Source of the DNA: Sphingomonas jatrophae
GTDB lineage: Bacteria > Pseudomonadota > Alphaproteobacteria > Sphingomonadales > Sphingomonadaceae
Direction: 5' to 3'
Assembly: GCF_900113315.1 (NCBI RefSeq)
Contig: NZ_FOZG01000003.1
Coordinates: forward strand, 186,001 to 250,000
DNA length: 64,000 nt
Part shown: piece by piece, positions 42,914 to 63,555 of the stretch
Layout: every line of letters starts with the position of its first letter
Numbering within the stretch: the stretch's first letter is position 1
Position numbers and translations under genes: made by a program
Notes under the pieces: generated by a model
Database searches by the model: none
What the model was told of the DNA's origin: nothing
The model's input: the letters and a program-made list of their open reading frames with translations, nothing else

Positions 42914-44653
42914 GTGGCAGGTTCGGCGAACGGCGCAGCCGACACGATCGAGTGCGATCTGCTGGTGATTGGCAGCGGTGGCGGCGCACTCACCGCCGCG
43001 GTGACGGCACGCAAGGCAGGCCTCGATGTCGTCGTGGTGGAGAAGCAGCCGGTGTTCGGCGGCACCACCGCGACATCCGGCGGCATGTTGTGGATCCCGG
43101 GCAACCGCCACTCGGCCGCCCTGCAGGAACGTCTGGGCGAGACCGATACGCTCGACAATGCGCGCAAGTACATCATCGAGGAAGCCGGCAATTATGCGGA
43201 CATCGACCGGATCGACGCCTATCTGAAATATGGCCCGGAGATGATCGCCTTCCTGGAGGACAATAGCCACGTCCGCTTCGACGCGGCCGAATATCCCGAT
43301 TACAACATGGACCACCCGAACGCCGCCAAAGTTCGCTCGCTGATCGCGCGCGAATATAATGCGGGCAAGCTCGGCAAGCATCTGCGCGAGCTGAAGAGCG
43401 AGCTGCCGCAGATGCTGTTCTTCGGCTTTGCGATCGGCTCGTCGGTGGAGATGAAGCAGTTCTTCCGGGCTGGCCGCTCACCGAAGGCGTTCGCCGCGGT
43501 CGCGGGCAAGATGGCGCGGCATGTCGTCGATACGGCGTTGCACGGGGCGCCCCGCCGCGTGGTCCGGGGGCGCGCGCTGATCACCCGGCTGGCGCAGACC
43601 CTGTTCGAGCTGAAGGTGCCGATCCTGCTCTCCTCCCCCGCGCGCGAACTGATCGTGACCGATGGCGGCGTGCGCGGCGCTGTCGTCGACACGCCGAACG
43701 GCGCACGGCGCATTCTTGCCAGGCGCGGCGTCGTGCTGGGCAGCGGTGGCTTTCCGCATGATGACAAGCGCCGCCAGCAGGCCTACCCCGCCAACGCTTA
43801 TGATGGCGTCCGCCGCTCCGTCGCCAACCCCGGCAATACGGGCGATGGCGCGCGACTGGCGGAACAGGCCGGCGGTGTGTTCAGCAAGGAGGTGTCGAAT
43901 GCGGGCGCCTGGATGCCGACCTCTGTCCGCCCCGACGTGGCCGGACCGGCGGGGGTCTGGCCCCATCTGGTCGATCGTCTGAAGCCCGGCTTCATCGCGG
44001 TCGGCGCGGATGCGCGGCGCTTCGGCAACGAGTCCGCTGCCTATTCCGCCTTCGTGCCGATGATGCTGGAGGCCGGGGCCAAGCAGCCGATGGCATTCGC
44101 CTGGCTGATCGGGGACAAGCGCGCCGTCGACAAGTGGGGGATCGGGCGGGTCCGCCCCAAGCCCATGCCGCGCCGCGGCTTCATCCGCTCAGGCTATCTG
44201 ATCGAGGCACCGACGCTCGCCGATCTCGCACGCAAGATCGGGCTCGATCCCGAACAGCTCCAGCAGACGGTGATGCGGTTCAACGCGGATGCGCGGCGTG
44301 GCGTCGACAGCGAGTTCAATCGCGGCGCCAACGCCTATGACGCCTATCAGGGCGACGACGATTATGATGGCCCCAACCTGTGCCTGGGGCCGCTGGAGAA
44401 GGGCCCGTTCTACGCGATCAAGATGTTTCCGGGCGAGATCGGCACCTTCGCCGGCATCCGCACCGATCGTTATGCGCGCGTGGTCCGCGAGGATGGATCA
44501 CCGCTCGACGGCCTTTATGCAGTCGGCAATGATCAGCTCAACGTGTTCGGCGGCGCCTATCCGGGTGCCGGTGCGACGCTTGGGCCGGGGCTGACCTTCG
44601 GCTACGTCGCTGCGCGCCATGCGGCGGGCCTGATCGGCGAGGAGGCGCGGTAG
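42914..44653 (+). CDS. FAD-dependent oxidoreductase, 3-ketosteroid-delta1-dehydrogenase-like
   Basis: The 579-residue protein has the FAD-binding motif LLVIGSGGGALTAAVTARKAG near residue 18-38 (given by its start GSGGG) and FGGTTATSGGMLWIP. A C-terminal FAD motif reads GLYAVGNDQ. The segment YPGAG at residues 549-553 matches the Tyr-x3-Gly pair that in KstD (Tyr487/Gly491 in the Rhodococcus enzyme) holds the 3-keto group. KstD removes two hydrogens from ring A of 3-ketosteroids, and relatives act on other cyclic ketones. The GTG start at 42914 has GAGAGA upstream. It opens the catabolic island and is convergent with the VOC gene (3-base gap). Confidence 0.85.
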   Translation: MAGSANGAADTIECDLLVIGSGGGALTAAVTARKAGLDVVVVEKQPVFGGTTATSGGMLWIPGNRHSAALQERLGETDTLDNARKYIIEEAGNYADIDRIDAYLKYGPEMIAFLEDNSHVRFDAAEYPDYNMDHPNAAKVRSLIAREYNAGKLGKHLRELKSELPQMLFFGFAIGSSVEMKQFFRAGRSPKAFAAVAGKMARHVVDTALHGAPRRVVRGRALITRLAQTLFELKVPILLSSPARELIVTDGGVRGAVVDTPNGARRILARRGVVLGSGGFPHDDKRRQQAYPANAYDGVRRSVANPGNTGDGARLAEQAGGVFSKEVSNAGAWMPTSVRPDVAGPAGVWPHLVDRLKPGFIAVGADARRFGNESAAYSAFVPMMLEAGAKQPMAFAWLIGDKRAVDKWGIGRVRPKPMPRRGFIRSGYLIEAPTLADLARKIGLDPEQLQQTVMRFNADARRGVDSEFNRGANAYDAYQGDDDYDGPNLCLGPLEKGPFYAIKMFPGEIGTFAGIRTDRYARVVREDGSPLDGLYAVGNDQLNVFGGAYPGAGATLGPGLTFGYVAARHAAGLIGEEAR

Positions 44654-45230: not shown

Positions 45231-46055
45231 ATGCCGCGAATCGATCATGCCGCAGAACTGCGCGCGCTTGTCGCGGTGCGTGGTCATCCGTTCGACCGCA
45301 CCGCGTTCGATCGCCTGTTCGAGGGCATGGCCGGCATCAGCGCGACGATGGTGGATCAGCCTGCCGCCGCGCTGCTGATGACGCCTGAAGGGATGGCCGA
45401 CTTCGACGTGCTCGTGCTCTACGACATGCCGGGCGTGGATTTCGCCGCAGCGGAGGATAGACCGGGCCTGCTGCAGCCATCTGCCGCTCTCAAGGACGGC
45501 ATGCGGCGCCTGCTGGGCGCGGGCAAGGGCGTCGTCGCGCTCCACCATGCGCTCGCGGGGTGGCCCACCTGGGACGAATATGGCGACTGGCTGGGCGGCC
45601 GCTTCCTCTACAAGCCGGGCCTCGTTCGCGGGGAGCCAAGGCCGGATTCGGGCTATCGCCACGACATCACCCACACGCTCCGCCCCGTCGCGCCTCATCC
45701 GGTGACGGCGGGCTTGCCGGACAGCTTCACGCTGACCGACGAACTCTATCTGGCGGAAACGTTCGAGAGCGACATCATCCCGCTGCTCCGCTCCGACCAT
45801 GCGTTCGACGATCGCGGCTTCTGGTCGGCAGCGGCGGCGGTGAACGGGCGCATGTTCGACAATGAGGGCTGGGTGCACCCGCCGGGGTCGAACATCGTCG
45901 GCTGGGTCAAGCGCGCGCTCGCCAGCCCGCTCGTCTATCTCCAGCCCGGTGACGGGCCGAGCGTGTATGACGATCCGAATTACCGCCGGCTGGTGGAAAA
46001 TGCGATCCGCTGGGCCGCCTCGCCGGAGGCGCTCGACTGGGCGCGCTCAGGCTGA
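45231..46055 (+). CDS. ThuA-like protein, copy 1
   Basis: The 274-residue product fits the ThuA/trehalose-utilisation-like glutamine-amidotransferase fold. It has an ALVAVRGHPFDRTAF opening, FDVLVLYDMPG as the central strand, KGVVALHHALAGWPTWDEYGDWLGGRF, DELYLAE, and HPPGSNIVGWVKRALASPLVYLQPGD. ThuA domains are linked to the breakdown of sugars and glycosides, including 3-keto sugars, but no reaction is proven for most. The ATG at 45231 has GGAGG 5 bases upstream; a GTG at 45225 is also in frame. Its end overlaps the convergent MFS gene by 9 bases. Confidence 0.82.
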   Translation: MPRIDHAAELRALVAVRGHPFDRTAFDRLFEGMAGISATMVDQPAAALLMTPEGMADFDVLVLYDMPGVDFAAAEDRPGLLQPSAALKDGMRRLLGAGKGVVALHHALAGWPTWDEYGDWLGGRFLYKPGLVRGEPRPDSGYRHDITHTLRPVAPHPVTAGLPDSFTLTDELYLAETFESDIIPLLRSDHAFDDRGFWSAAAAVNGRMFDNEGWVHPPGSNIVGWVKRALASPLVYLQPGDGPSVYDDPNYRRLVENAIRWAASPEALDWARSG

Positions 46056-50825: not shown

Positions 50826-53699
50826 ATGAGGGCACATCGTTTCCGCGCAATTCTCTGCGGCTCGGCGGCGATGCTGCCCTTCCATGCAGTGTCGGCGCAG
50901 ACGGCCGATCCCGCGGCCGCGATGGCAGCCCCCGTCCCCTCGCAGGACGGCGCGACGCAGAACGATGCCCCCGTCTCGGCGCAGACCGTACCCGGCGAAG
51001 TCGCCCCCATTGCCGCGGCCGAGCCGGCGGCTGCGGCAGCACCCGACGTCGTCGTCACCGGCTCGCGCATCGTGCGCAACGGATACGACGCGCCGACCCC
51101 GGTCAGCGTCGTGACCGAAGCGGAGATCCAGCAGGCCGCGCCGGTGACGATCGCAGATTATGTCAACCAGCTGCCCTCGCTCGCCGGCTCGCAGTCGCCC
51201 CGTTCGTCCGCATCCACCGTGGGCGGCGGTCTTGCCGGTGCCAACCTGCTGAACCTGCGCAATCTCGGCCCGAACCGCACGCTGGTGCTGCTCAACGGCC
51301 GCCGCGTGACGCCGTCCACCGTCACGGGCGCGGTCGACATCAACACGCTGCCGCAGGCGCTGGTACAGCGCGTCGACGTGGTGACGGGCGGTGCTTCGGC
51401 AGCTTGGGGCTCGGACGCGGTCAGCGGCGTGGTCAATTTCGTGCTCGACACCAAGTTCGAAGGCATCAAGGGCCAGGTGCAGGGCGGCATCACCGGTGAA
51501 GGCGACGGCGAGTCGATCACCGCCGATCTGAGCTGGGGTGCGAAGCTCGGCGACCGCGGCCGTATCGTCGTCAGCGGCAATTTTTCGTCCGCCGGCAGCG
51601 CCTACCTGCGCAAGCGCGATTGGTACAAGGGCTACAAGTTCTTCATCAACCCGGCCTACACGCCGACCAACGGCCAGCCGCAGCGGCTGATCCTGCCCAA
51701 TTCGACGATCAACGCGACGCGCGAGGGCGTGATCATCTCCGGCCCGCTGCGCGGCACCGCGTTCGACGCCGCCGGCAACGTCGCCACGACCAATTTCCCG
51801 TTCGGCTCGGTCGCGAGCGGCTTCGTCCAGTCGGGCGGCACGCAGAATTACGACATGACGCTGGACGTGCTCCAGGTCTCGACGCCGGTCACGCAGGGCG
51901 CCGCCTTCGCACACGCCGAATATGAGCTGGCCGACGACCTCACCTTCTTCGCCGAGGGCAGCTACGGCTCGTCGCGGACGCGGACGAACTCCGGCTATTT
52001 CTGGCGGGTCGACAATGAGCCGATCCGCATCGACAATGCGTATCTGCCGACTTCCGTGCGCGATCGCATGGTGGCGGCGGGCATCACCAGCTTCAACCTG
52101 TCGCACATCAATCCGGCGTTCGGCTGGCCGGAAGGCGTGAACGATCGCTCGCTGATCCGCGGCCTTGCCGGCCTCGAAGGCAAGATCAGCAACTGGAAGT
52201 GGAACGTCTATTACCAGTACGGCCAGACGCGCATCAAGAATGCGGGTGAGAACAACCTTCTGCCCAGCCGCATTCTCAACATGTTCGACTCGGTCGTCGG
52301 GCCGGGCGGCACCCCCGTCTGCCGCTCGACTCTGACTTCGCCGAACAATGGCTGCGTGCCCTACAATCCGTTCGGCAACCGTGAGATCACCGACGCGCAG
52401 CGCGCCTATGCGTCCGGCACGTCGCTGTCGCGCATCCGCCTGACGCAGCACGTGATCGAAGGCAGCGTGCAGGGCGACCTGTTCGACCTGCCCGCCGGTG
52501 CGGTCGCGCTGGCAGTGGGCGGCGACTATCGCCGCGACAGCGGCGGCGTCGTCGAGGCCGATCCCAACAGCGAAGCCGGCTTGTGGTATGTCGCCAACCA
52601 GAAGGCGTTCCGCGGCCGCATCTCGGTCAAGGAAGCGTTTGGCGAGTTGGCCGTGCCGGTGCTGAAGGACAGCGCGGTCGGCACGCTCGACCTGAATGGC
52701 GCGGTGCGCTTCACCGATTATTCGACCAGCGGCAGCGTGACGACGTGGAAGGTCGGCGGCACCTGGGCCCCGATCGAGGACATCCAGTTCCGCGTCACCC
52801 GCTCGCGCGACATTCGTGCACCGTATCTCAGCGAGCTGTTCACCGCGGGCACGACCCTGGTGCAGTTCCTCACCGATCCGACCCGCGGCAACAGCAGCGT
52901 GTCCGTCGTGCAGACCACCAGCGGCAACCCCAATCTCGCGCCCGAGCGGGCCAATTCGCTGACCGCAGGCGTGGTGCTGCGGCCGAGCTTCCTGCCCGGC
53001 TTCTCGGCCTCGATCGACTATTACGACATCAAGATCGACGGTGCGATTTCGACCAGTTCGTCGCAGCAGATCGTCAATCTCTGCGCCGCCGGTCAGTCGG
53101 TCTTCTGCTCCGCCATCACGCGGGATGCCGGCGGCACGATCACGGCGGTTTCGGTGGTTCCGTTCAACGCACGTGAGGAGCTTGCCCGCGGCTTCGACGT
53201 CGAGCTCGGCTATCGCCGCCCGCTCGGTGCGGGTGCAATCGATCTGCGCGCCTTGTTCAACTATGCCGACAAGCTGGAGATCGTGAACCCGACCAACGTG
53301 GTCACGCGCGCGGGTGAGGTTGGCAACAATCTCGGCGTGTCGCAGGGCGTGCCGCGGCTGCGCGGCCTGTTCACCGCCACCTATGCGGGCGATCCGATCA
53401 CCGTGCAGCTGAAGAGCCGCTTCATCGGCAAGTCGAAGATGGAGGTGGATTTCGGTCCGCTCGACCAGAACCGCAACAAGGTGCCGGCGATCGCCTATTT
53501 CGATGCCTTTGCCTCCTATGACCTGAAGCTTGGCGGCGGCAGCACCGAATTGTTCGTCGCGGTCGACAACCTGCTCGACAAGGGCCCGCCCGTCGTCCTC
53601 TCGCAGGACACGCAGATCGGCCAGGCATCCGGCACCAACCTGCTGATCTATGACGGCGTCGGTCGGACCTTCCGGGGCGGTGTCCGCTTCAAGTTCTGA
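50826..53699 (+). CDS. TonB-dependent outer-membrane receptor (catabolic island)
   Basis: The 957-residue receptor has a signal peptide (about 1-25, ending AVSAQ), a TonB-box-like VVVTGSRIV, a plug with VLLNGRRVTPS and RVDVVTGGASAAWGSDAVSGVVNF, and a large barrel ending VRFKF with terminal aromatic. The LNGRR plug type is common in sphingomonads. It likely brings the island substrate across the outer membrane. The ATG has GGGAGG about 7 bases upstream, and a three-copy operator-like element sits in its promoter region. The EthD gene begins on its stop. Confidence 0.93.
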   Translation: MRAHRFRAILCGSAAMLPFHAVSAQTADPAAAMAAPVPSQDGATQNDAPVSAQTVPGEVAPIAAAEPAAAAAPDVVVTGSRIVRNGYDAPTPVSVVTEAEIQQAAPVTIADYVNQLPSLAGSQSPRSSASTVGGGLAGANLLNLRNLGPNRTLVLLNGRRVTPSTVTGAVDINTLPQALVQRVDVVTGGASAAWGSDAVSGVVNFVLDTKFEGIKGQVQGGITGEGDGESITADLSWGAKLGDRGRIVVSGNFSSAGSAYLRKRDWYKGYKFFINPAYTPTNGQPQRLILPNSTINATREGVIISGPLRGTAFDAAGNVATTNFPFGSVASGFVQSGGTQNYDMTLDVLQVSTPVTQGAAFAHAEYELADDLTFFAEGSYGSSRTRTNSGYFWRVDNEPIRIDNAYLPTSVRDRMVAAGITSFNLSHINPAFGWPEGVNDRSLIRGLAGLEGKISNWKWNVYYQYGQTRIKNAGENNLLPSRILNMFDSVVGPGGTPVCRSTLTSPNNGCVPYNPFGNREITDAQRAYASGTSLSRIRLTQHVIEGSVQGDLFDLPAGAVALAVGGDYRRDSGGVVEADPNSEAGLWYVANQKAFRGRISVKEAFGELAVPVLKDSAVGTLDLNGAVRFTDYSTSGSVTTWKVGGTWAPIEDIQFRVTRSRDIRAPYLSELFTAGTTLVQFLTDPTRGNSSVSVVQTTSGNPNLAPERANSLTAGVVLRPSFLPGFSASIDYYDIKIDGAISTSSSQQIVNLCAAGQSVFCSAITRDAGGTITAVSVVPFNAREELARGFDVELGYRRPLGAGAIDLRALFNYADKLEIVNPTNVVTRAGEVGNNLGVSQGVPRLRGLFTATYAGDPITVQLKSRFIGKSKMEVDFGPLDQNRNKVPAIAYFDAFASYDLKLGGGSTELFVAVDNLLDKGPPVVLSQDTQIGQASGTNLLIYDGVGRTFRGGVRFKF

Positions 53700-54352
53700 T
53701 GTTCAAGGTCATGGGCCTGATCCGGCGGCGGGGAGACCTGCCGCCGGATGCGTTTCGGCTGCACTGGCGGACGATCCATCGCGGCCTTGCCCTCCGCATC
53801 GCCGAGGCCGGGCTGCTTGCCGGTTACGTGCAGAACCATAAGCTCGACATACCGGTCGACGGGCTCGAGATTGTCGCCGATGGCGTGCCGGAATTGTGGT
53901 TTGCGGATGCGGAGGCCTTTGCCGCGCTGCGCAGCCATGCAGCGTTTCGCGACGGCGCGTTCCATGACGAGCCGAACTTCATGGACATCAGCGACTATCG
54001 CTCGCAACCGCTCACCGAGGAGATCGGCACCGGTGCGCCGCGACGTGAGTGCGTCGGCCTGCTGAAGGCGATCCTGTTCCTGCACGAGGGGGAGCCGGGC
54101 CTGCCCGGCCATGGCGCGGTTCGCACCGCGCGCCAGACCCGCCCCGCCACGCCCCTCCCCATCAAGGTCGCGCCTTACGTGGCGGTCGAGACCAGCTGGT
54201 GGCACGATCTCGCGACCTTCCGGCGCGCCTGGGCCGACCATGACGGGCCGGCACGCGGGCTGCTTGCCGAGGAGCGTGTCGTATTCTGGCCGGGCGATCC
54301 GAGCCCACCGGCGGACTGGCGGCCGGTGCCGCCGACGCGGGCTCAGGCGTAA
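53699..54352 (+). CDS. EthD-domain protein
   Basis: The 217-residue product starts with an EthD-type dimeric alpha/beta-barrel module (FKVMGLIRRRGDLPPDAFRLHW, with IHRGLALR and AGYVQNH). A second, more degenerate module is in the second half (AILFLHEGE to RAWADHDGPARG). EthD proteins are small partners of oxidative catabolic clusters, some acting as cyclases, decarboxylases or monooxygenase helpers. The start overlaps the TonB receptor stop by one base (TGATG), so the two are coupled. Its end overlaps the convergent SnoaL-like gene by 10 bases. Confidence 0.82.
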   Translation: MFKVMGLIRRRGDLPPDAFRLHWRTIHRGLALRIAEAGLLAGYVQNHKLDIPVDGLEIVADGVPELWFADAEAFAALRSHAAFRDGAFHDEPNFMDISDYRSQPLTEEIGTGAPRRECVGLLKAILFLHEGEPGLPGHGAVRTARQTRPATPLPIKVAPYVAVETSWWHDLATFRRAWADHDGPARGLLAEERVVFWPGDPSPPADWRPVPPTRAQA

Positions 54353-54840
54353 GACGGGTCGTCCGGCGCGCGTGCACCCGTCCTGCTGAACCGGGCGAAG
54401 CGCCCGCTGCCGATCTCGCAGGTCGAAGGTGCGATCTCGTTCCAGTCCATGACGTAGCGCCGCTCGGCGATGCGCCATCCCTCGCGGGTCCGCACCAACC
54501 GGTCGAGATAGCGTCCGCCGACGATCATCTGCTGCGCCTGCCCATCGACGGTCAGCTGGTGATAGGCGGTGCACATCGTCTCGGCCGAAGCATGATCGCC
54601 GGCAAGATCGACAAGGCTGTTGCTCAGAGCATGCTGCGTCCGCTCCATCGCGCGCAGGCGGCCGAGCAGGCCGAGGCTCCACTGCGCGGCGTCCTCCGGC
54701 CCCTCGCCGTAATCGACGATGGCTCCCGGCGCCCAAACCGTGTCGAACAGCGCCGCATCGCAGCGGTCCACCGCACGCGCATATCTCGCCATCAAATCGG
54801 CAATGTCGATGCGGTCGGCCACGGTCTGCAGAGTTGACAC
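54343..54840 (-). CDS. SnoaL-like (NTF2-fold) protein, copy 1
   Basis: The 165-residue protein follows the SnoaL-like pattern: an N-terminal helix IADLMARYARAVDRCD, a pocket strand VWAPGAIVDYGEG, the middle AMERTQHALSNSLVDL, and a C-terminal strand pair GRYLDRLVRTREGWRIAERRYVMDW. NTF2-fold proteins in catabolic clusters serve as isomerases, hydratases or cyclases. The start is a GTG at 54840 with AGGA about 9 bases upstream. It is divergent from SnoaL-like copy 2, with a dyad in the gap. Confidence 0.82.
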   Translation of the reverse strand: MSTLQTVADRIDIADLMARYARAVDRCDAALFDTVWAPGAIVDYGEGPEDAAQWSLGLLGRLRAMERTQHALSNSLVDLAGDHASAETMCTAYHQLTVDGQAQQMIVGGRYLDRLVRTREGWRIAERRYVMDWNEIAPSTCEIGSGRFARFSRTGARAPDDPSYA

Positions 54841-54861
54841 TGCCGGGTCCTTTCGAAATAA

Positions 54862-54885
54862 AATACAGGATAGCTTGACTGTATT
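54862..54885. promoter_or_regulatory. Dyad between divergent SnoaL-like genes
   Basis: AATACAG (54862-54868) and CTGTATT (54879-54885) are perfect 7-base arms with a 10-base spacer. The site lies 22 bases from one start and 49 bases from the other, and overlaps a possible TTGACT -35 box for the plus-strand operon. This suggests a repressor site for both. Confidence 0.5.
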
Positions 54886-54933
54886 GTGCAGGCGCATCGA
54901 TCGCAACGGCGACGCGATATCCAAGGAGCGGGA

Positions 54934-55458
54934 ATGCCGGAGAGACCGCCATCATTGGGCGAGTTGGCCGATCGGGTCGCCATTGCCGACTGCATCGCGC
55001 GCTACATGCGCGGGCAGGATCGGCTTGAGGCGTCGCTGCAGCTCGAAGCATTTCACCCTGATGCCACGGTCGATTACGGCTTCTTCACCGGCAGCGCGGC
55101 AGACTTCGTCGCTTTCGCGCAGGGCCTGCTCGCCCGCTATCCCGCCACATGGCACGCGCTCGGCCAGTCGTTGATCCAGCTGGACGGCGACAAGGCGACG
55201 GGCGAGGTCTATTTCCACGCGTGGCACCGCCGCGATGCCGGCGAGGGATTGCAGGACCTCCAGATCGCCGGCCGCTACCTCGACCACTATGAGCGCAGAG
55301 ACGGTGCGTGGGCGATCACGCATCGCCGCGAAGTGGTCGACTGGACACGCACCGACCCCGCCGCCGACGACTGGTTCCACCGCACGCCCACGGCGCTCCG
55401 CGGCGGCCGCGGCAGCGCCGATCCCAGCGCCCACATCCGAGAGGACGACCATGTCTGA
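54934..55458 (+). CDS. SnoaL-like (NTF2-fold) protein, copy 2
   Basis: The 174-residue protein has the same plan as copy 1: IADCIARYMRGQDRLEASL, FHPDATVDYGFFTG, ATWHALGQSLIQLDGDKATGE and a final GRYLDHYERRDGAWAITHRREVVDW. The tail after residue 150 is disordered-looking. The ATG at 54934 has AAGGAG about 7 bases upstream. Its stop overlaps the start of the first Rieske oxygenase gene by 8 bases, so the two proteins are probably made in fixed ratio. Confidence 0.85.
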   Translation: MPERPPSLGELADRVAIADCIARYMRGQDRLEASLQLEAFHPDATVDYGFFTGSAADFVAFAQGLLARYPATWHALGQSLIQLDGDKATGEVYFHAWHRRDAGEGLQDLQIAGRYLDHYERRDGAWAITHRREVVDWTRTDPAADDWFHRTPTALRGGRGSADPSAHIREDDHV

Positions 55459-56809
55459 CCTGAAGCCCGGCGAGCATCGCTGCCCCGGCCCGAGCACGCG
55501 CGACATCATCCTGGCGGACCGGCAGAAGGTGCCGGACGCGCTGATCACCGAATCTCCTGCCTTTCTCGGCGACGGCGACATTCCCTATGAGCGCTATTAC
55601 TCGCAGGCCTTCTTCGACCTCGAGATGAAGAAGCTCTGGCCGAAGGTGTGGCAATGGGCATGCCGCGTCGAGGATATAAGCGAGCCGGGCGATTACATCA
55701 CCTATGAGGTCGGGCCCCATTCGCTGATCGTCATGCGCGGACAGGACGATCGCATCCGCGCCTTCCACAATGCCTGTCTCCACCGCGGCACGCAGCTGCG
55801 CCGCCCGGGTGACGCGGGATGGACGCCGGAGCTGCGCTGCCCTTATCACGGCTGGACGTGGACGACCGAGGGCACGCTCAAGTCGATCCCGTGCCGCTGG
55901 GATTTCCCGCATGTCGACAATGCCGCTTACGGCCTGCCCGAGGCGAAGGTCGGCACGTGGGGCGGCTTCGTCTTCATCAACATGGACGAGGATGCCGAGC
56001 CGCTCGAACAATTCCTCGGCGTGATGCCCGATCATCTTCGCGACGGCTGGGATCTCGGCCGCCGCGCGGTGGCGGTGCATGTGCAGAAGGAACTGAACAC
56101 CAACTGGAAGGCCGCGCAGGAGGCGTTCCTCGAGGCCTATCACGTGGTCGAGACGCACGCGCAGAACCTGCCCTTTGCGGGCGATGCCAATGCGCAATAT
56201 GACGTGTTCGGCGATCACGTCTCCCGCTTCGTCCACACGCACGGTGTGCCGAGCCCGCATTACGCGCATCCGCAGACCGAGCAGGAGATTGCCGAGAAGA
56301 TGCATCTGCCGCCCGGCACGATCGTGCCCGAGGGCCGCACCGCGCGCTCGGTGGCCGCGGACTGGCGACGCACCAATCTCGGCAGCAAGTGGGGTCTCGA
56401 TCTCAGCGCCTATTCGGACAGCGAGATGCTCGATTCGATCGAGTATCACCTGTTCCCGAACATGTGCGTCTTTCCGGGCGTATCGCTGCCGATGGTCTAT
56501 CGCTTTCGCCCGATCGGCATGGATCCGGGCCGCACGCTGTTCGATCTGCTGTTCCTGCGGCCACTGAAGGACGGCGAGGAGCATCCCGAGCCAGTCGAGC
56601 CGGTGCGCATCGCGCACGACCAGAGCTATGGCGACGCACCGGGGATCGAGCGCTGGCTGGGTGCGACCTTCGACCAGGATACGGACAACCTCGCCCGCCA
56701 GTATCGCGGCTTCCAGTCGTCGAAGAAGCGCGGCGAGACGCTGGGCAATTACCAGGAGTCGCGCATCCGCCACCTGCATCAGGTGCTGGACGCCTATCTG
56801 GCGCGCTGA
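55451..56809 (+). CDS. Rieske non-heme iron oxygenase alpha subunit, copy 1
   Basis: The 452-residue protein has a Rieske [2Fe-2S] site (Cys109, His111 in CLHRG; Cys130, His133 in CPYHGW) and a mononuclear iron site in EAYHVVETH (Glu228 as bridging acid, His231, His236). It should hydroxylate or dihydroxylate a cyclic substrate with O2 and electrons from a ferredoxin/reductase not found here. Glu rather than Asp before the first His is seen in many alpha-only oxygenases. The ATG overlaps the SnoaL-like copy 2 stop. A quinone oxidoreductase gene lies convergently downstream. Confidence 0.93.
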   Translation: MSDLKPGEHRCPGPSTRDIILADRQKVPDALITESPAFLGDGDIPYERYYSQAFFDLEMKKLWPKVWQWACRVEDISEPGDYITYEVGPHSLIVMRGQDDRIRAFHNACLHRGTQLRRPGDAGWTPELRCPYHGWTWTTEGTLKSIPCRWDFPHVDNAAYGLPEAKVGTWGGFVFINMDEDAEPLEQFLGVMPDHLRDGWDLGRRAVAVHVQKELNTNWKAAQEAFLEAYHVVETHAQNLPFAGDANAQYDVFGDHVSRFVHTHGVPSPHYAHPQTEQEIAEKMHLPPGTIVPEGRTARSVAADWRRTNLGSKWGLDLSAYSDSEMLDSIEYHLFPNMCVFPGVSLPMVYRFRPIGMDPGRTLFDLLFLRPLKDGEEHPEPVEPVRIAHDQSYGDAPGIERWLGATFDQDTDNLARQYRGFQSSKKRGETLGNYQESRIRHLHQVLDAYLAR

Positions 56810-56839
56810 TCCGGGAGGATCGGCGCGCCAGGCGCTTGG

Positions 56840-57811
56840 TCAGGGGATCAGCACGACCTTGCCGAACTGGTTGCCGTCCTCCAGCCAGCGGTGGGCGGCA
56901 CCGGCCTCCTCCAGCCCGAAGCGCCGATCGATCGGCAGGCGGATCTGGCCGGAGGTGAACCATGGCCATGCCGCATCGGCAATGGCCGCAGTCAGGCGCG
57001 CTTTCTCGTCCGCGGGCCGGCCGCGCAGTGTTGATGCCGTGAGCGTCAGGCGCTTGAACATCAGCTTGACCAGATCGGTCTCGACGATGTTGCCGCCCAG
57101 CGTCGCGATCTGGACCAGTCGCCCGTCCGCGTTGAGCGCCTCGATATTGCGGGCGAAATAGTCGCCGCCGACGATGTCGAGCACGAGGTCGACGCCGCCC
57201 GCGGCGCGGGCCGTCCCGGCGAAATCCTCTGCGGTCACGTCGATTGCGAGGTCGGCACCGAGCGCCTTTGCCCGCGCTGCCTTGTCTCCGCCGCGGGCCG
57301 TTGCGATCACGCGGGCGCCTGCGGCCTTCGCCATGAGAATCGCGGTCGTGCCGATGCCGCTATTCGCGCCGTGGATCAGCGCCGTCTCGCCCGCGCTCAG
57401 CCGACCGCGTTCGAACAGGTTGGTGAAGACAGTGAAGACGGTTTCCGGCAAAGACCCTGCCTCGATCAGGTCCATGCCCTCGGGCACCGGCAGCGCATGC
57501 CGCGCATCCACGACGGCATATTCGGCATAACCGCCGCCCGGCAGCAGAGCCGCGACGCGGTCACCCGTGCGCCAGCGGCTGACCCCCTCGCCCACCGCCT
57601 CGACGGTGCCTGCGACCTCGAGCCCCATGACCTCCGATGCGCCCGGCGGTGGGGGATAATTGCCCTCGCGCTGGCCGATGTCGGGGCGATTGACGCCTGC
57701 CGCCGCGACCCGGATCAGGATCTCGCCGGGTTTCGGCTCAGGCGTGGCCGCCTCGCCGACGAACAGGTCTGCCGCCGTTCCCTTGCCGCCGCGTATCTGA
57801 ACAGCCCGCAT
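56840..57811 (-). CDS. NAD(P)H quinone oxidoreductase, zinc-less medium-chain dehydrogenase type
   Basis: The 323-residue protein is an MDR enzyme of the quinone oxidoreductase/PIG3 type. It has VAAAGVNRPDIGQREGNYPPPPG, GLEVAGTVEAVG, the cofactor motif HGANSGIGTTAI and VLDIVGGDYF. Zinc-ligand residues of alcohol dehydrogenases are absent. It reduces quinones or alpha,beta-unsaturated ketones with NAD(P)H. The ATG at 57811 has GAGAGGG about 3-4 bases upstream. It is divergent from the second Rieske gene with a dyad in the gap. Confidence 0.9.
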   Translation of the reverse strand: MRAVQIRGGKGTAADLFVGEAATPEPKPGEILIRVAAAGVNRPDIGQREGNYPPPPGASEVMGLEVAGTVEAVGEGVSRWRTGDRVAALLPGGGYAEYAVVDARHALPVPEGMDLIEAGSLPETVFTVFTNLFERGRLSAGETALIHGANSGIGTTAILMAKAAGARVIATARGGDKAARAKALGADLAIDVTAEDFAGTARAAGGVDLVLDIVGGDYFARNIEALNADGRLVQIATLGGNIVETDLVKLMFKRLTLTASTLRGRPADEKARLTAAIADAAWPWFTSGQIRLPIDRRFGLEEAGAAHRWLEDGNQFGKVVLIP

Positions 57812-57871
57812 AACCCTCTCCCAGCCAAATCCGTCCATCGCCTCTGCCCTGCCCGTTCAGCAGAATCAAAA

Positions 57872-57885
57872 ACAATCAAGATTGT
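57872..57885. promoter_or_regulatory. Dyad upstream of the second Rieske operon
   Basis: ACAATC-AA-GATTGT is a perfect 6+2+6 inverted repeat in an A/T-rich patch of an otherwise GC-rich gap. It is 61 bases upstream of the quinone oxidoreductase start and 60 bases upstream of the Rieske start. It may control both genes. Confidence 0.45.
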
Positions 57886-57945
57886 CTTTAATTTGTCGGT
57901 CTGCCATGATGCCATCATCAGAGCCCGTCAGAACGGGAGAGGACA

Positions 57946-59322
57946 ATGAATTACGATCCCCGCGCGCCGCGCGTGCCCGAGCAGCCCGATGGGGCGCCCA
58001 CCACCACGTGGGACAGCCTGGCCGCCGCGGACAGCCGACCCCTGCCGCAGTTCCTGCTGGATCATGCGCAGGAAGATATGGGCAATGCTCCGCTCGATGT
58101 GGCGCGCTACACCGATGAGGCCTTCTTCCGCGCCGAGTGCGAGAAGATGTGGCCGAACGTGTGGCAATTCGTCGCGCGGCAGGAGGAGATGCCCGAGCCC
58201 GGCGATTACGTCCTCTACGAGAATGCCGGCCGCTCCTTCCTTGTCACGCGGCAGGCGGATGGATCGGTCCGTGCCTTCCACAATGTCTGCCTGCATCGCG
58301 GGCGCAAGCTGCGGACATCGAGCGGCTATGCCGACGACTTCCAGTGCCCCTATCATGGCTTCACCTGGAAGACGGACGGCACACTGAAGCAGATCCCCTG
58401 CCGCTGGGACTTCCCGCATCTCGACAATGTCGACCTGTCGCTGCCGGAGGCCCAGGCGGGCGAATGGGCGGGCTATATCTTCATCAAGGAGTCAGAGGGC
58501 GGCCCGACGCTGGCCGAGTATCTGGCGCCCCTGCCCGAGCAGTTCGATCGCTGGTCGCACGACCGCGCCTACACCACCGCATGGGTGGCGAAGGTCATTC
58601 CCGCCAACTGGAAGGCGTGCGCCGAAGCGTTCATGGAGGCGTTCCACGTCTCCACCACGCACCCGCAGATCATGGGGTTCACCGGCGACGTCAATTCCAA
58701 GTACAACCTCTATGGCGATCATGTGAACATCGCCATCACGCCGTTCGGCGTCCTCTCCCCCACGCTCGGGGTGTCGGACAACGAACAGGAGATCATCAAC
58801 AATTTCCTGAAATATAATGGTCGCGTCGTGACCCCCGGCACCACCATCGACGTGCCCGAGGGCCGCACCGCCCGCGCCACGATGGGCGAGTTCAACCGCC
58901 GCCGCTTCGCCGACCTGTTCGGGCAGGATCTCGATCATGCGAGCGATGCGGAGGTGCAGGACGCCTTCACCTACAACATCTTCCCCAACTTCTCGCCGTG
59001 GGGCGGCTTTCAGCCGACCGTCGTCTATCGCTGGCGGCCCTGGCCCGACGTGCGCCACACGCTGATGGAGGTGCGCCTGCTCGGCCGGCTGAAGCCGGGC
59101 GAGACCGCCCCGGTGCCGACGATGAAGCTGATCGAACCGCACGAGAGCTTCGCCGACCATCTCGGCCAGTTGGGCGTCGTTCTGGAGCAGGACATGGACA
59201 ATCTTCCCCACGTCCAGACCGGCATGGAGGCGTCGAAGACCAAGGCGCTCCATCTCGCCCATTATCAGGAAAGTCGCATCCGGCATTTTCACCGGACGCT
59301 GGACAAATATCTCGCGGGCTGA
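57946..59322 (+). CDS. Rieske non-heme iron oxygenase alpha subunit, copy 2
   Basis: The 458-residue protein has the Rieske site Cys115/His117 (CLHRG) and Cys134/His137 (CPYHGF), and the mononuclear site EAFHVSTTH (Glu231, His234, His239). It is related to copy 1 across its length (shared RW-DFPH and QESRIRHFHRTLDKYL end), yet differs in the substrate-pocket region, so it probably acts on a different position or intermediate. It is followed 35 bases later by SnoaL-like copy 3, with SDR and third Rieske genes beyond, on one transcript. Confidence 0.93.
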   Translation: MNYDPRAPRVPEQPDGAPTTTWDSLAAADSRPLPQFLLDHAQEDMGNAPLDVARYTDEAFFRAECEKMWPNVWQFVARQEEMPEPGDYVLYENAGRSFLVTRQADGSVRAFHNVCLHRGRKLRTSSGYADDFQCPYHGFTWKTDGTLKQIPCRWDFPHLDNVDLSLPEAQAGEWAGYIFIKESEGGPTLAEYLAPLPEQFDRWSHDRAYTTAWVAKVIPANWKACAEAFMEAFHVSTTHPQIMGFTGDVNSKYNLYGDHVNIAITPFGVLSPTLGVSDNEQEIINNFLKYNGRVVTPGTTIDVPEGRTARATMGEFNRRRFADLFGQDLDHASDAEVQDAFTYNIFPNFSPWGGFQPTVVYRWRPWPDVRHTLMEVRLLGRLKPGETAPVPTMKLIEPHESFADHLGQLGVVLEQDMDNLPHVQTGMEASKTKALHLAHYQESRIRHFHRTLDKYLAG

Positions 59323-59357
59323 CGGCGCTGTCCGTTACTGCGAAGAAGGAGAGACGC

Positions 59358-59894
59358 GTGGACGCTGATATCCGCATCCTGCTCGACAAGCAGGCATGCA
59401 CCGAATTGGTCTACCGCTTCGCCCGCGGGCTCGACCGCTGCGACGAGGCTGTCCTCCGCTCGGTCTTTCACCCCGACGGCACGGACGACCACGGTTACTT
59501 CAAGGGCGATGCGAATGCGTTCATCGCGTGGGTGCTGCCGCTGCTGCGTACGATGGAGCGGACGCAGCACGTCATCGGCAACGTGCTTGTCGAGGTCTCC
59601 GGCGACGAGGCGTGGTCCGAAAGCTATTTCGTCGCCTATCACGACGTGACCGACGCGGCCGGGCAGGCGCTGCGCACGACGGTCGCCGGCCGCTATCTCG
59701 ACCGGTTCGAGCGGCGCGGCGACGAATGGCGGATCGCGCACCGCGAGTTCGTCTCGGATTGGAGCGCGTCGGATCCGCGCAGCGACATGTGGGATCGGGC
59801 CGCGGGTGGTGATCGCCGCTATGGCCAGCGCGCCCCGCACGATCCGCTCTACGCGCAGGGCTTTTCCGCCGCAGGTCAGGCGGTGGCGGCATGA
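59358..59894 (+). CDS. SnoaL-like (NTF2-fold) protein, copy 3
   Basis: The 178-residue protein matches copies 1 and 2: LVYRFARGLDRCDEAVLRSVFHPDG, MERTQHVIGNVLVEV, and GRYLDRFERRGDEWRIAHREFVSDW. MERTQH is shared with copy 1, and a His-Asp pair in the pocket is possible. The start is a GTG at 59358 with AAGGAG upstream. Its stop overlaps the next SDR start (ATGA). Confidence 0.85.
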   Translation: MDADIRILLDKQACTELVYRFARGLDRCDEAVLRSVFHPDGTDDHGYFKGDANAFIAWVLPLLRTMERTQHVIGNVLVEVSGDEAWSESYFVAYHDVTDAAGQALRTTVAGRYLDRFERRGDEWRIAHREFVSDWSASDPRSDMWDRAAGGDRRYGQRAPHDPLYAQGFSAAGQAVAA

Positions 59895-60652
59895 GGCTCC
59901 AGGGCAAGCGCGCGCTGCTCGCCGGCGCCTCCACCGCCGATGGCATGGGGGCGGCAATCGCCCGCCGCTTCGTGGCGGAAGGCGCGCAGGTGGTCCTTGG
60001 CGGCCGCAATGCGGAGAAGACCGCGGCCGCGGGCGCGGCGCTCGGACTGCCGACGGTGCAGCTCGACATCACCGACGAAGCCTCCCTGGCTGCCGGCGTG
60101 AAGGCCGCCGCCCAGGCGCTCGGCGGGCTCGACATCGCGATCAACCTCGCCGGGGTGAACCACTCTTCCTTGATCGCGGACGAGACCTATGAAGGTTTGC
60201 TAGAGCAGGCCAAGCTGCACTTCGTCGGCACGTCCCTGTTCATTCGCGACGTCGCCGCGGCGATGACGAACGGCGGATCGATCATCACCATTTCGTCGCT
60301 GACGGTCGAGCTGACCGGCCCGCGCTTCGCCGCTTATGCCGGCAGCAAGGCCGCCGCCGACAAGGTGGTGCGGGTGGCTGCGGTCGAATATGGCGAGCGC
60401 GGCATCCGGGTGAACTCGCTCGCACCCGGCCTGACGCGCACGCGGATGACAGGCGCCTATTTCGAGAACCCGGCGCTGCGCGAGGCCTTCGAGCGCGAGA
60501 CGCCGACGGGGCATCTGGCCGAGCCGGAGGATGTCGCGGCAGCCGCGCTGTGGCTAGCCAGCGACGAATGCACCGCGACGGGCGATCTCGTCCGTGTCAG
60601 CGGCGGCATGCACCTGCGCCGCCTTCCCACCCCTCGCGACTTCGCATCCTGA
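59891..60652 (+). CDS. Short-chain dehydrogenase/reductase
   Basis: The 253-residue SDR has the cofactor region AGASTADGMGAAIA (an insertion compared with TGxxxGIG), NLAGVNH in the NNAG position, ISSLTVELTG and YAGSKAA for the Tyr-x3-Lys pair. It ends VSGGMHLRRL. The ATG overlaps the stop of SnoaL-like copy 3, and the third Rieske gene starts 13 bases later. It probably oxidises a hydroxyl made by one of the oxygenases. Confidence 0.9.
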   Translation: MRLQGKRALLAGASTADGMGAAIARRFVAEGAQVVLGGRNAEKTAAAGAALGLPTVQLDITDEASLAAGVKAAAQALGGLDIAINLAGVNHSSLIADETYEGLLEQAKLHFVGTSLFIRDVAAAMTNGGSIITISSLTVELTGPRFAAYAGSKAAADKVVRVAAVEYGERGIRVNSLAPGLTRTRMTGAYFENPALREAFERETPTGHLAEPEDVAAAALWLASDECTATGDLVRVSGGMHLRRLPTPRDFAS

Positions 60653-60665
60653 GCCGGAACCACCC

Positions 60666-62009
60666 ATGGGCAAGATCGACATTCAGCCGCACGCAGGACG
60701 CCCCATCGGCGTCGACCTGAGCAAGGCGCCCGAGCCCACGCTCAGCAACAAGCCGATCACGCCCGAGCGCTATTGGGATCGCGACTTCTGGAAGCGCGAG
60801 TGGGAGACCGTCTGGACGCGCACCTGGCAGGTCGCGGCGATGGTCAACCAGTTCACCAAGCCGGGCGACTTCGTCACGCTGGAATTCGGCAGCGAGGTGA
60901 TCCTGGCAGTGATGGGCGAGGATCGCGAGATCCGCTGCTTCTACAACGTCTGCCAGCATCGCGGCATGATGCTGGTGACGCAGGAAGTCGGCAACTCCCG
61001 GCGGCTGACCTGCCCTTATCACGCCTGGTCCTACAATCTCGCCGGCGAGATAAAGACGATCCCGGACGAGCCGGACTTCCCTGCTTCCGCCAACTGCCGA
61101 TCCAAGAACCTTGTGCCGATCAAGACCGGCATCTGGGGCGGCTTCGTCTGGTTCAACATGGACGACGATGCCGAGCCGCTGCGCGACTTCCTCGCCCCCG
61201 TGGCCGATCATCTTGACGCCTACCCGATGGACCAGATGGTCCGCACCCATTGGGTGACGATCGAGGGCGATTTCAACTGGAAGCTGGTTCAGGACAACTT
61301 CAACGAATCCTACCACGTCTTCCATGCTCATCCGCAGCTGAAATATGTTGCCGAATTCTCCTATCTTCACTCGCAGTTCGATCTCTATCCGAGCGGCCAT
61401 GCGCGAATGCTGATGGCCGGCGGCGCACCCAGCCGCACGCTGCGGGGCGGCGAGCCCGAGATCATCCGCCAGATGGGCGAGCATATCCGCTTCTGGGGCC
61501 TCGACCCGGAGGACTTCCGCGGGCGCATGCATGACCTGCGCGAGGCGCTACAACAGCAGAAGCGCAAGCTCGGTGCCGAGAAGGGATATGACTTCTCGAG
61601 CTATGACGACACGATGCTGACCGACAATTGGCATTACACGCTGTTCCCGAACCTGTCCTTCAGCATGAAGCCCGACGGCAATATCTGGCTGCGCGCGCGC
61701 CCGCACCCGACCGATCCGGAGAAGTGCTTCTTCGACATGTGGTATCTGAACCTCTTCCCGGAAGGTCAGACGAGCTACTATTCGCCGACCATGCGCGACT
61801 GGGTCAGCATGGAAACGCCCGCACCGCACCAGAGCGGCAAGGCCGGGGATTACACGATGGGCCCGACGATCGATCAGGACGTCGCCCTGTGGAGTGCGCA
61901 GCAGAAGGCGCTGCATTCGCGCGGCTACAAGCGCGAGGTGCTGGCGGGGCAGGAATCCCGCGTCCGCTATTTCCACGACAATCTGGAGCGGTGGATGGCG
62001 CGCGGGTGA
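60666..62009 (+). CDS. Rieske non-heme iron oxygenase alpha subunit, copy 3
   Basis: The 447-residue protein has the Rieske site Cys96/His98 (CQHRG) and Cys116/His119 (CPYHAW) and the mononuclear site ESYHVFHAH (Glu214, His217, His222). It is clearly more distant from copies 1 and 2 than they are from each other: the start, the CQHRG form and the C-terminal LYLNLFPEGQ region differ. This suggests a separate reaction. The ATG at 60666 is inside the operon. It is convergent with the TetR gene (20-base gap). Confidence 0.93.
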   Translation: MGKIDIQPHAGRPIGVDLSKAPEPTLSNKPITPERYWDRDFWKREWETVWTRTWQVAAMVNQFTKPGDFVTLEFGSEVILAVMGEDREIRCFYNVCQHRGMMLVTQEVGNSRRLTCPYHAWSYNLAGEIKTIPDEPDFPASANCRSKNLVPIKTGIWGGFVWFNMDDDAEPLRDFLAPVADHLDAYPMDQMVRTHWVTIEGDFNWKLVQDNFNESYHVFHAHPQLKYVAEFSYLHSQFDLYPSGHARMLMAGGAPSRTLRGGEPEIIRQMGEHIRFWGLDPEDFRGRMHDLREALQQQKRKLGAEKGYDFSSYDDTMLTDNWHYTLFPNLSFSMKPDGNIWLRARPHPTDPEKCFFDMWYLNLFPEGQTSYYSPTMRDWVSMETPAPHQSGKAGDYTMGPTIDQDVALWSAQQKALHSRGYKREVLAGQESRVRYFHDNLERWMARG

Positions 62010-62029: not shown

Positions 62030-62734
62030 TCAGGCGGTGACGGGCAGATCGAGATCGTCGCCGTCGGGCCAGTCGAGCGTGCCCTCCCGTACCTTCAGCA
62101 GCGCGGAGGAGAGGAAGGCCAGCAGCGCACGTTCCATGTCGATGTCGGCCCATACGTCGCGGTTGAGCACCATGCCGCTCATCACCGTCTGCACCAGCCG
62201 GCGCGAGCGGGACAGGAGCGCAGGATCGTCCGCCCATTCGGGAAAGACGCGCTCCAGCTCCTCACGCCACGCCCGGTCGTGCCGACGGGCCTTGGGCACG
62301 AAGGTGGCGCGGAGTTCCTCGTCGGTGCGCGCAGCGACGGTCAGCTCGAGATAGGCGCTATATTCGCGCGACTGGTAGAGCCGCCAGTCGATCAGGATGC
62401 CCGCATTGTCGCGCATCCGCTCCACCTCTGGCAGCTCGCGCACCGAGGTGATGAACTGTTCGAGATGCCGGTAGAAGGCATAGTCGATGACGGAGGCGAT
62501 CAGCTCCTGCTTGGTCGAATAATGGTGCAGCATCGCCCCGCGGGACACGTTCGCCACCTTCGCGATCAGCTGCGTCGTGGTCCGCGCGTAGCCGACGCGG
62601 GCGAGACAATCGACCGCCGCATCGAGGATCGTCACGCGCGTCTCCGCGCTCTTGCGCTGTTGCAGGCCCGCATCGGGCGTCGCCATCCCGGCAGGTTCGA
62701 GCTCGGACAAGGCGGTGCGGATCGCGGCGTTCAT
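62030..62734 (-). CDS. TetR-family transcriptional regulator
   Basis: The 234-residue protein has a TetR DNA-binding domain (ILDAAVDCLARVGYARTTTQ with IAKVANVSRGAMLHHYSTKQELI, about residues 36-82) and a ligand-binding C-terminal part. The start is the ATG at 62734; an upstream in-frame ATG adds 13 residues with no family match. It is divergent from the second ThuA-like gene, and the 65-base gap holds a weak GCCGC-GGC-GCGGC dyad. It is the only regulator found inside the island, so it may control it, with a pathway intermediate as ligand. Confidence 0.9.
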   Translation of the reverse strand: MNAAIRTALSELEPAGMATPDAGLQQRKSAETRVTILDAAVDCLARVGYARTTTQLIAKVANVSRGAMLHHYSTKQELIASVIDYAFYRHLEQFITSVRELPEVERMRDNAGILIDWRLYQSREYSAYLELTVAARTDEELRATFVPKARRHDRAWREELERVFPEWADDPALLSRSRRLVQTVMSGMVLNRDVWADIDMERALLAFLSSALLKVREGTLDWPDGDDLDLPVTA

Positions 62735-62799: not shown

Positions 62800-63555
62800 G
62801 TGGACATGGACAAGCGCCGGATCGACTGCGTCCTGATCGCCGGCGGCAAGTGGCACGACATCGACTTTGCCCGGCTGGAACTGCTCAAGCTACTGGCCGA
62901 GGACCAGCGCGTGCGGGTGCGCGTGTTCGAGGATTATGAGGCGATCGACGCGATCGAGGCGGCGGACATCCTCGTCAGCTATACGTGCGACGTGATCCCG
63001 TCGCTGGCGGTGCAGGAGCGGCTGCGTGCTTATCTGGCGGGCGGCAGAAGGTGGCTGGCGCTGCATGGCTGCAACTCGGTGCTGCGCTTCCTGGAGAACG
63101 GCAAGGTGGATGCGCCGGACTGGGCGCCGCACTTCATGGAGACGCTGGGCACGGCCTTTGTCGCGCATCCGCCGGTGGGGCCGTTCCGGGTGGAGGTGAC
63201 GCAGCCGGATCATCCGCTGGTCGCGGGCATCGAGCCGTTCGAGCCGGAGGATGACGAGCTGTATCTGTCGCGTCCGACGGCGGAGATCGAGACGCTGCTG
63301 CATGTCGATTTCGAGGGTGAGGCGCCGGCCTTTGTTGCGGACCAGTGGAGCGCGAGGCGGCATCCGCTCATGTACCTGCGGCGTTGGGGCGACGGCGCGA
63401 TCCTGTACAATGCGCTGGGGCATTGCCGCGGGCATCTGGACATGCAGCCGAAGGTCGAGTGGTTCCCGAAGGTGCAGCGGGGCGCGTGGCGGTGCCCGGA
63501 ATATTACGAACTGCTGCGGCGCGGGATCGCCTGGACCAAGGCGGGCCTAAGGTGA
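62800..63555 (+). CDS. ThuA-like protein, copy 2
   Basis: The product of about 251 residues resembles ThuA-like amidotransferase-fold proteins: DCVLIAGGKWHDIDFARLELL, YEAIDAIEAADILVSYTCDV, YLAGGRRWLALHGCNS, AHPPVGPFRVEVTQPDHPLVAGIEPF, DELYLSRP and ILYNALGHCRGHLD. The start is taken as GTG 62800, with GGGAG 7 bases upstream. An ATG at 62773 (with AAGG upstream) is also in frame. It shares the HHAL/HGCN and DELYL marks with copy 1 but little else. The reaction is unknown. Confidence 0.82.
   Translation: MDMDKRRIDCVLIAGGKWHDIDFARLELLKLLAEDQRVRVRVFEDYEAIDAIEAADILVSYTCDVIPSLAVQERLRAYLAGGRRWLALHGCNSVLRFLENGKVDAPDWAPHFMETLGTAFVAHPPVGPFRVEVTQPDHPLVAGIEPFEPEDDELYLSRPTAEIETLLHVDFEGEAPAFVADQWSARRHPLMYLRRWGDGAILYNALGHCRGHLDMQPKVEWFPKVQRGAWRCPEYYELLRRGIAWTKAGLR

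Follow-up and report, generated by a model that had tools for sequence, protein, structure and literature searches.

The 64,000-nucleotide stretch of the Sphingomonas jatrophae genome analyzed here (G000:C4:186001-250000, hereafter the window; genome size 4.06 Mb) contains 57 predicted genes, among which reading frames and Pfam matches place three SnoaL_4 genes, coding for NTF2-like proteins, among three Rieske oxygenase alpha subunit genes at 54343-62009. We put the probability at about 0.78 that these genes code for alpha-only Rieske oxygenases with a bridging glutamate (Glu) and for separate NTF2-like enzymes of a dehydratase or isomerase type, which would act together in one catabolic pathway. 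The initial annotation had left two roles open for the SnoaL_4 proteins, beta-like partners of the oxygenases or enzymes that process the oxygenated product; the latter is favored, and a role as beta-like partners of R1 and R2 is not supported, given the Glu-bridged alphas, the free gene order, the swapping of partners, and a predicted fold of the LinA/BaiE type. We found no description of this recurring Rieske/SnoaL_4 module in the literature searched; its component families are known. The six genes are as follows:

54343-54837, - strand: SnoaL1, SnoaL_4 NTF2-like protein of 164 residues, transcribed divergently from SnoaL2 (PF13577, 98.6 bits)
54934-55458, + strand: SnoaL2, SnoaL_4 NTF2-like protein of 174 residues (PF13577, 93.1 bits)
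55451-56809, + strand: R1, Rieske oxygenase alpha subunit with bridging Glu, EAYH (PF00355, PF00848, motif, tree)
57946-59322, + strand: R2, Rieske oxygenase alpha subunit with bridging Glu, EAFH (PF00355, PF00848, motif, tree)
59358-59894, + strand: SnoaL3, SnoaL_4 NTF2-like protein of 178 residues with a GTG start (PF13577, 81.4 bits)
60666-62009, + strand: R3, Rieske oxygenase alpha subunit with bridging Glu, ESYH (PF00355, PF00848, motif, tree)

The overlap of SnoaL2 with R1 and the close succession of R2 and SnoaL3 are as first annotated, and measure 8 nucleotides and a gap of 35 nucleotides, respectively; SnoaL3 in turn overlaps a short-chain dehydrogenase/reductase (SDR) gene by 4 nucleotides. 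The absence of a beta subunit gene, also remarked on in the initial annotation, extends to the whole genome, where a search with the beta subunit profile PF00866 (cut-off 27 bits) returns five partial matches, none of them above cut-off. True betas are recognizable in the host's family, because 66 of 249 genomes examined there have PF00866 matches above cut-off.

Rieske alpha subunits and the bridging residue

The genome has eight PF00848 matches. A bridging Glu is present in the iron motif of R1, R2, and R3, as had been annotated, but the ExYH form given for all three does not hold for R2, which has Phe in place of Tyr. We compared these proteins with other alphas in a tree of 97 rows, composed of the three window proteins, 65 further rows (relatives, along with other alphas from the same genome), and 29 alphas encoded beside true betas. 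In this tree, built by a quick method and with some long branches, a 100% branch separates the 29 beta-partnered alphas from all 68 others. The bridging residue divides in the same way, with aspartate (Asp) in 29/29 of the beta-partnered alphas and Glu in 68/68 of the others, including R1, R2, and R3, which thus do not belong to the Asp-bridged, beta-bearing class. A simple sequence rule for recognizing true betas among the NTF2-like neighbors of Rieske alphas is suggested for this sample, by which a bridging Asp goes with a true beta and a bridging Glu with none; the sample comprises 30 beta loci from the top of a longer PF00866 list and the 68 Glu-bridged rows, mostly retrieved through similarity to R1, R2, or their neighbors. 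The 29 beta-partnered alphas match our own Rieske profile only weakly (80-174 bits, mostly in the Rieske half).

The association of Glu with alpha-only enzymes, proposed in the initial annotation, agrees both with this division and with the group V carnitine monooxygenase CntA, which forms a head-to-tail alpha3 trimer and uses Glu205 as its bridging residue (PMC7948474). CntA is also the nearest structure to the R1 part of a SnoaL2-R1 fusion model discussed below (Z 29.6, root-mean-square deviation [rmsd] 3.2 over 328 residues, ~22% identity), with stachydrine demethylase (Z 26.0), salicylate 5-hydroxylase (25.3), and classical dioxygenase alphas (24.0 and below) from the third place on. R1, R2, and R3 share the bridging Glu with CntA; R1 differs from it in its low identity, and the Glu-bridged set lacks a CxxC pair at the iron site, position +1 being A, S, or G in 68/68. 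None of the three reaches the cut-off (670) of NF058607, the model for the glycine betaine monooxygenase GbcA (R1 119.4, R2 95.6, and R3 125.2 bits). Judged by motif, tree, and, for R1, modeled structure, R1-R3 appear to be Glu-bridged Rieske oxygenases resembling group V enzymes, of which they are putative members, and by analogy with CntA each probably forms an alpha3 trimer.

We note that the residue two positions before the bridging Glu is Phe in 65/68 and Tyr in 2/68 of the Glu-bridged alphas. The residue at this position in CntA, Tyr203, binds substrate, and an aromatic residue there binds quaternary ammonium in CntA-type enzymes (PMC7948474).

Family and predicted fold of the SnoaL_4 proteins

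SnoaL1, SnoaL2, and SnoaL3 all pass the PF13577 (SnoaL_4) cut-off of 24 bits and are members of this family; SnoaL2 has no match to PF00866 at E values up to 1. There are 26 SnoaL_4 matches in the genome (25 above cut-off), and 17 of the 26 lie within ~370 kb of contig C6 (G000:C6:1572576-1945200), which forms a second SnoaL-rich region.

SnoaL3 is the only one of the six SnoaL and Rieske proteins with a standalone structure model, which has a predicted local distance difference test score (pLDDT) of 93.4 and a predicted TM-score (pTM) of 0.89. Its best structural match is LinA (Z 18.6, rmsd 1.7 over 141 residues), which covers nearly the whole domain at an identity of ~15%, followed by uncharacterized NTF2-like proteins, BaiE (Z 16.7), LdpA (14.8), scytalone dehydratase (14.7), and ketosteroid isomerase (14.5), such that many of the top matches are enzymes. 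No ring-hydroxylase beta is among the best 50 matches by Z-score, which is a statement of rank only, because betas do appear in the Foldseek list, beginning at rank 19 (3eby, TMq 0.56). Among the Foldseek matches listed, TMq values are 0.66-0.69 for LinA, 0.65-0.70 for BaiE, and 0.51-0.58 for betas.

A profile of 42 SnoaL3 relatives gives a similar picture: LinA and BaiE align across the whole domain, and the beta chains 3eby (2.9e-7) and 7q04_A (2e-4) are matched at about residues 68-140 only. The charged residues R23, D26, R27, H71, E88, R112, D115, and R129 of SnoaL3 are invariant in these relatives, and in the profile alignment D26 and H71 occupy the columns of the LinA dyad, His73-Asp25 (PMC3507683). 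By predicted fold the SnoaL_4 proteins are of the LinA/BaiE type, and we do not file them as beta subunits. A SnoaL-like relative with a solved structure, 3b8l, is titled 'putative aromatic ring hydroxylase'.

Gene order, recurrence, and exchange of partners

Rieske alpha genes recur beside SnoaL genes in other genomes. A Rieske alpha lies within 1.5 kb at 14/30 loci with top-ranking relatives of SnoaL3 from the host's family, one of which is the window itself, and a 15th locus (L061) is added when open reading frames running off the end are allowed. This pairing exceeds chance, which by a rough estimate assuming uniform placement is ~1.4% per gene; even at a tenfold rate the probability of 14/30 is ~2e-5. 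The order R2-SnoaL3-SDR is also found in a Sphingomonadales metagenome-assembled genome (MAG; L001), Novosphingobium sp. ERN07 (L002), a Sphingomonas MAG (L003/G205), and G035; R3 comes next in three of these (L002, L003, and G035). SnoaL2 is followed by R1 in L001, L002, and G093.

The positions of SnoaL genes relative to alphas are quite different from those of true beta genes. At the 30 beta loci fetched, the alpha is directly upstream on the same strand in 28, downstream in one (L086), and not found in the stretch in one (L106). Our census covered 38 loci, a selection of those fetched, and counted 55 SnoaL copies scoring above 100 bits, of which 11 lie before an alpha, eight behind, one between two alphas, and three on the opposite strand, with no alpha within 400 bp of the remaining 32. 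The same-strand order is 28:1 for betas versus 9:12 for SnoaL genes (Fisher P 2.5e-5, for loci that are related and not independent). In the window SnoaL3 sits directly behind an alpha, as true betas do, and SnoaL2 does not; the SnoaL genes as a whole do not keep to this position.

Partners are also exchanged. SnoaL3 lies between orthologues of R1 (62.5%) and R3 (57%) with no R2 alongside in G139 (L113), and R3 is the only alpha adjoining SnoaL3 in G088 (L114). In G112 (L112) the consecutive genes SnoaL3, SnoaL1, and SnoaL2 are flanked by R3 and R1, and G224 (L116) has R1, SnoaL2, SnoaL1, and R3 one after another. G093 (L109) and plasmid pHR1a (L013) each have R2 and SnoaL3 in the same cluster but on opposite strands, and in G211 (L110) an R2 (60%) is present without SnoaL3, with a 39% SnoaL2-like gene ~7 kb away. 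Among eight distinct R2 orthologues (at least 60% identity; window, L001, L002, L003/G205, G035, G093, L013, and G211), five have SnoaL3 directly behind them and two have it at another place in their cluster; for the eighth, no SnoaL3 was found in the 18 kb fetched.

Many relatives of these alphas have no recognized SnoaL neighbor. Searches with our own profile found none within 1.5 kb at 21/30 R2-type loci of the host's family, nor at 16/19 loci of R1 relatives that are 39-61% identical to R1 and come from 13 genomes of other alphaproteobacterial families; among the R1 relatives at least 52% identical, nine of 12 are without a recognized SnoaL in the same distance. Since absence was judged with this profile in 1.5-kb flanks, these counts may miss remote NTF2-like neighbors. 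Conversely, Rhizobium and Variovorax plasmids (L014, L015, and L016) carry SnoaL3 relatives (40-43%) that have no Rieske neighbor in the stretches read. SnoaL partners thus swap among alphas or are absent, and their order and strand are free. We also note that three R1 relatives (52-54%; L124, L125, and L126) that likewise lack a recognized SnoaL within 1.5 kb are from small (1.4-Mb), AT-rich alphaproteobacterial genomes, and that one of the plasmid SnoaL3 relatives is near nif genes, along with a P450, an SDR, and a luciferase-like oxidoreductase.

Alternative roles of the SnoaL_4 proteins

Several observations weigh against separate enzymes acting beside alpha-only oxygenases. The recurrence of the adjacency at 14/30 loci and the tight coupling in the window (the 8-nucleotide overlap and the 35-nucleotide gap) fit a partner role; L122 and L123, from two genomes of a different family, also have a SnoaL gene ahead of an R1 relative, and weaker SnoaL_4 copies outside the census adjoin Rieske alphas at further loci (L007, L009, L017, L018, L032, L036, L038, L041, and L043). 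With Z 27.0, the alpha subunit of the beta-bearing terephthalate dioxygenase is the second structural match of the R1 part. PF00866 weakly matches SnoaL1 (25.7 bits) and SnoaL3 (26.0 bits) over partial stretches, below the cut-off of 27, and true betas keep the Asp and His columns of LinA too (Asp in 19/19 and His in 17/19 of the betas aligned, eight of 27 beta loci having been dropped by a crude motif filter). The Asp-His dyad was consequently rejected as proof of an enzyme and is not used to separate enzyme from subunit.

Were the SnoaL_4 proteins divergent but functional beta subunits, packing under R1 and R2 to form alpha3beta3 oxygenases, then the features they share with PF00866 betas would be accounted for: the NTF2-like fold, the size of 160-180 residues, a tightly coupled and recurring Rieske alpha neighbor, the Asp and His columns, the partial PF00866 matches, and the profile alignments to 3eby and 7q04_A. 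The kinship in fold and size pointed out in the initial annotation is borne out by the weak matches and common columns, and is insufficient for a claim that the proteins are subunits. We regard this role as very improbable, as the SnoaL proteins fall below the PF00866 cut-off and lie beside alphas of a Glu-bridged class that has no true betas in our sample, their order and strand are free, their partners swap or are missing, and LinA and BaiE fit the SnoaL3 model better than betas do. Moreover, R27, E88, and Y113, which do not vary across the 42 SnoaL relatives, are mostly missing from the 19 aligned betas. An artificial SnoaL2-R1 fusion of 624 residues, modeled from an alignment of 20 SnoaL and 12 Rieske rows that were unpaired and without a control, has two well-folded parts joined by a linker with pLDDT below 50; its pTM of 0.70 is about that expected without docking because 452 of the 624 residues are alpha, again with no control for comparison.

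A very improbable alternative is that the SnoaL_4 proteins are separate enzymes that dock on the oxygenases to receive an unstable product. Such product channeling would suit an adjacency that recurs in several orders and the overlap of SnoaL2 with R1, but plain operon membership would account for the adjacency too, SnoaL3 is coupled to the SDR gene (4-nucleotide overlap) as tightly as to R2, G093 and pHR1a have SnoaL3 and R2 on different strands, and the fusion model, made from unpaired rows with no control, has no confident docking. We place at the same low level the proposal that they are facultative, exchangeable docking partners of Glu-bridged alpha3 oxygenases, whose unstable products they would receive, and a living counterpart of the state that preceded the recruitment of NTF2-like betas. 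The least credible role is that of non-catalytic ligand binders or pathway regulators; NTF2-like domains do include non-catalytic versions (PMC3924330), but the charged residues invariant over 42 relatives, the placement of D26 and H71 in the LinA dyad columns, and the many enzymes among the best structural matches of SnoaL3 argue otherwise. Separate dehydratase- or isomerase-type enzymes remain the reading we prefer, and caution is warranted in naming such SnoaL genes as parts of ring hydroxylases.

Proposed pathway and comparison with known systems

The family assignments, predicted fold, synteny, free order, exchange of partners, and Asp/Glu division come from computation. For the trimer state, substrate, and reactions of alpha-only oxygenases with separate SnoaL_4 enzymes, we infer a scheme in which the Rieske enzyme would introduce a hydroxyl group on the substrate, and a SnoaL protein with its LinA/BaiE-like fold would remove water or shift a double bond in the oxygenated product. 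The SDRs and a medium-chain dehydrogenase could then oxidize or reduce the resulting carbonyl. The window also codes for a flavin adenine dinucleotide (FAD)-dependent oxidoreductase (42914-44653) related to 3-ketosteroid-delta1-dehydrogenases but scoring below the cut-offs of those families, and a 75% relative of it lies near R2 in G035; this kinship and location hint at an alicyclic or steroid-like substrate.

With regard to the identity of the pathway, steroid, lignin-dimer, syringate, and bile-salt papers yielded analogies only. LinA resembles SnoaL3 in fold, in a profile alignment over the full domain, and in the dyad columns (H71 and D26), and is unlike it in sequence; BaiE and LdpA resemble it in fold, and BaiE also in a full-domain profile alignment. 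LdpA and PcfL belong to the NTF2 family and deformylate lignin dimers, in the case of LdpA via a dehydration (PMC12997858). Hsh2 is an NTF2-like steroid dehydratase in the degradation of bile salts by a sphingomonad (PMC12175502), likened here to the window SnoaL proteins by description and not by sequence. MgaD of Pseudomonas sp. NGC7 is a PF13577 (pfam13577) protein that its authors predict to be a tautomerase acting on a later intermediate of the syringate pathway (PMC12314914); it is reminiscent of the window proteins in belonging to a pathway begun by a Rieske O-demethylase, and unlike them in the Rieske class and substrate, the likeness again being one of description only. The pdmAB-type Rieske pairs are not used as a precedent.

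Neighboring genes

The remaining genes of the cluster and its immediate flanks are as follows:

53699-54352, + strand: EthD-domain protein adjoining SnoaL1 (PF07110, 47.3 bits)
56840-57811, - strand: medium-chain zinc-type (quinone-oxidoreductase-like) dehydrogenase between R1 and R2 (PF08240, PF00107, PF13602)
59891-60652, + strand: SDR dehydrogenase (PF13561, 177.4 bits)
62030-62734, - strand: TetR-type regulator, conserved next to R3 (PF00440, synteny)
62800-63555, + strand: ThuA-domain protein, often near R3-type alphas (PF06283, 63.2 bits)

Together with R1, R2, and R3 and the three SnoaL_4 genes, the SDR, ThuA, and EthD genes mark a recurring catabolic module of sphingomonads. Novosphingobium resinovorum HR1a and Novosphingobium sp. 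ERN07 are examples of cultivable relatives that have such a cluster. The loci nearest to the window among the genome contigs searched are in Novosphingobium, Sphingomonas, and an unclassified Sphingomonadales bacterium.

The position of the EthD gene beside SnoaL1 is kept in L001 and L002. Its product could be a further enzyme of the dehydratase or lyase type, because Hsh3, the second dehydratase (7beta-hydroxysteroid) of the bile-salt pathway noted above, is an EthD-domain protein of Sphingobium (PMC12175502). No role for ThuA in Rieske clusters was found in the sources examined. The window has two ThuA-domain proteins (45231-46055 and 62800-63555), and ThuA genes directly adjoin Rieske alphas at other loci too (L007, L010, L013, and L017).

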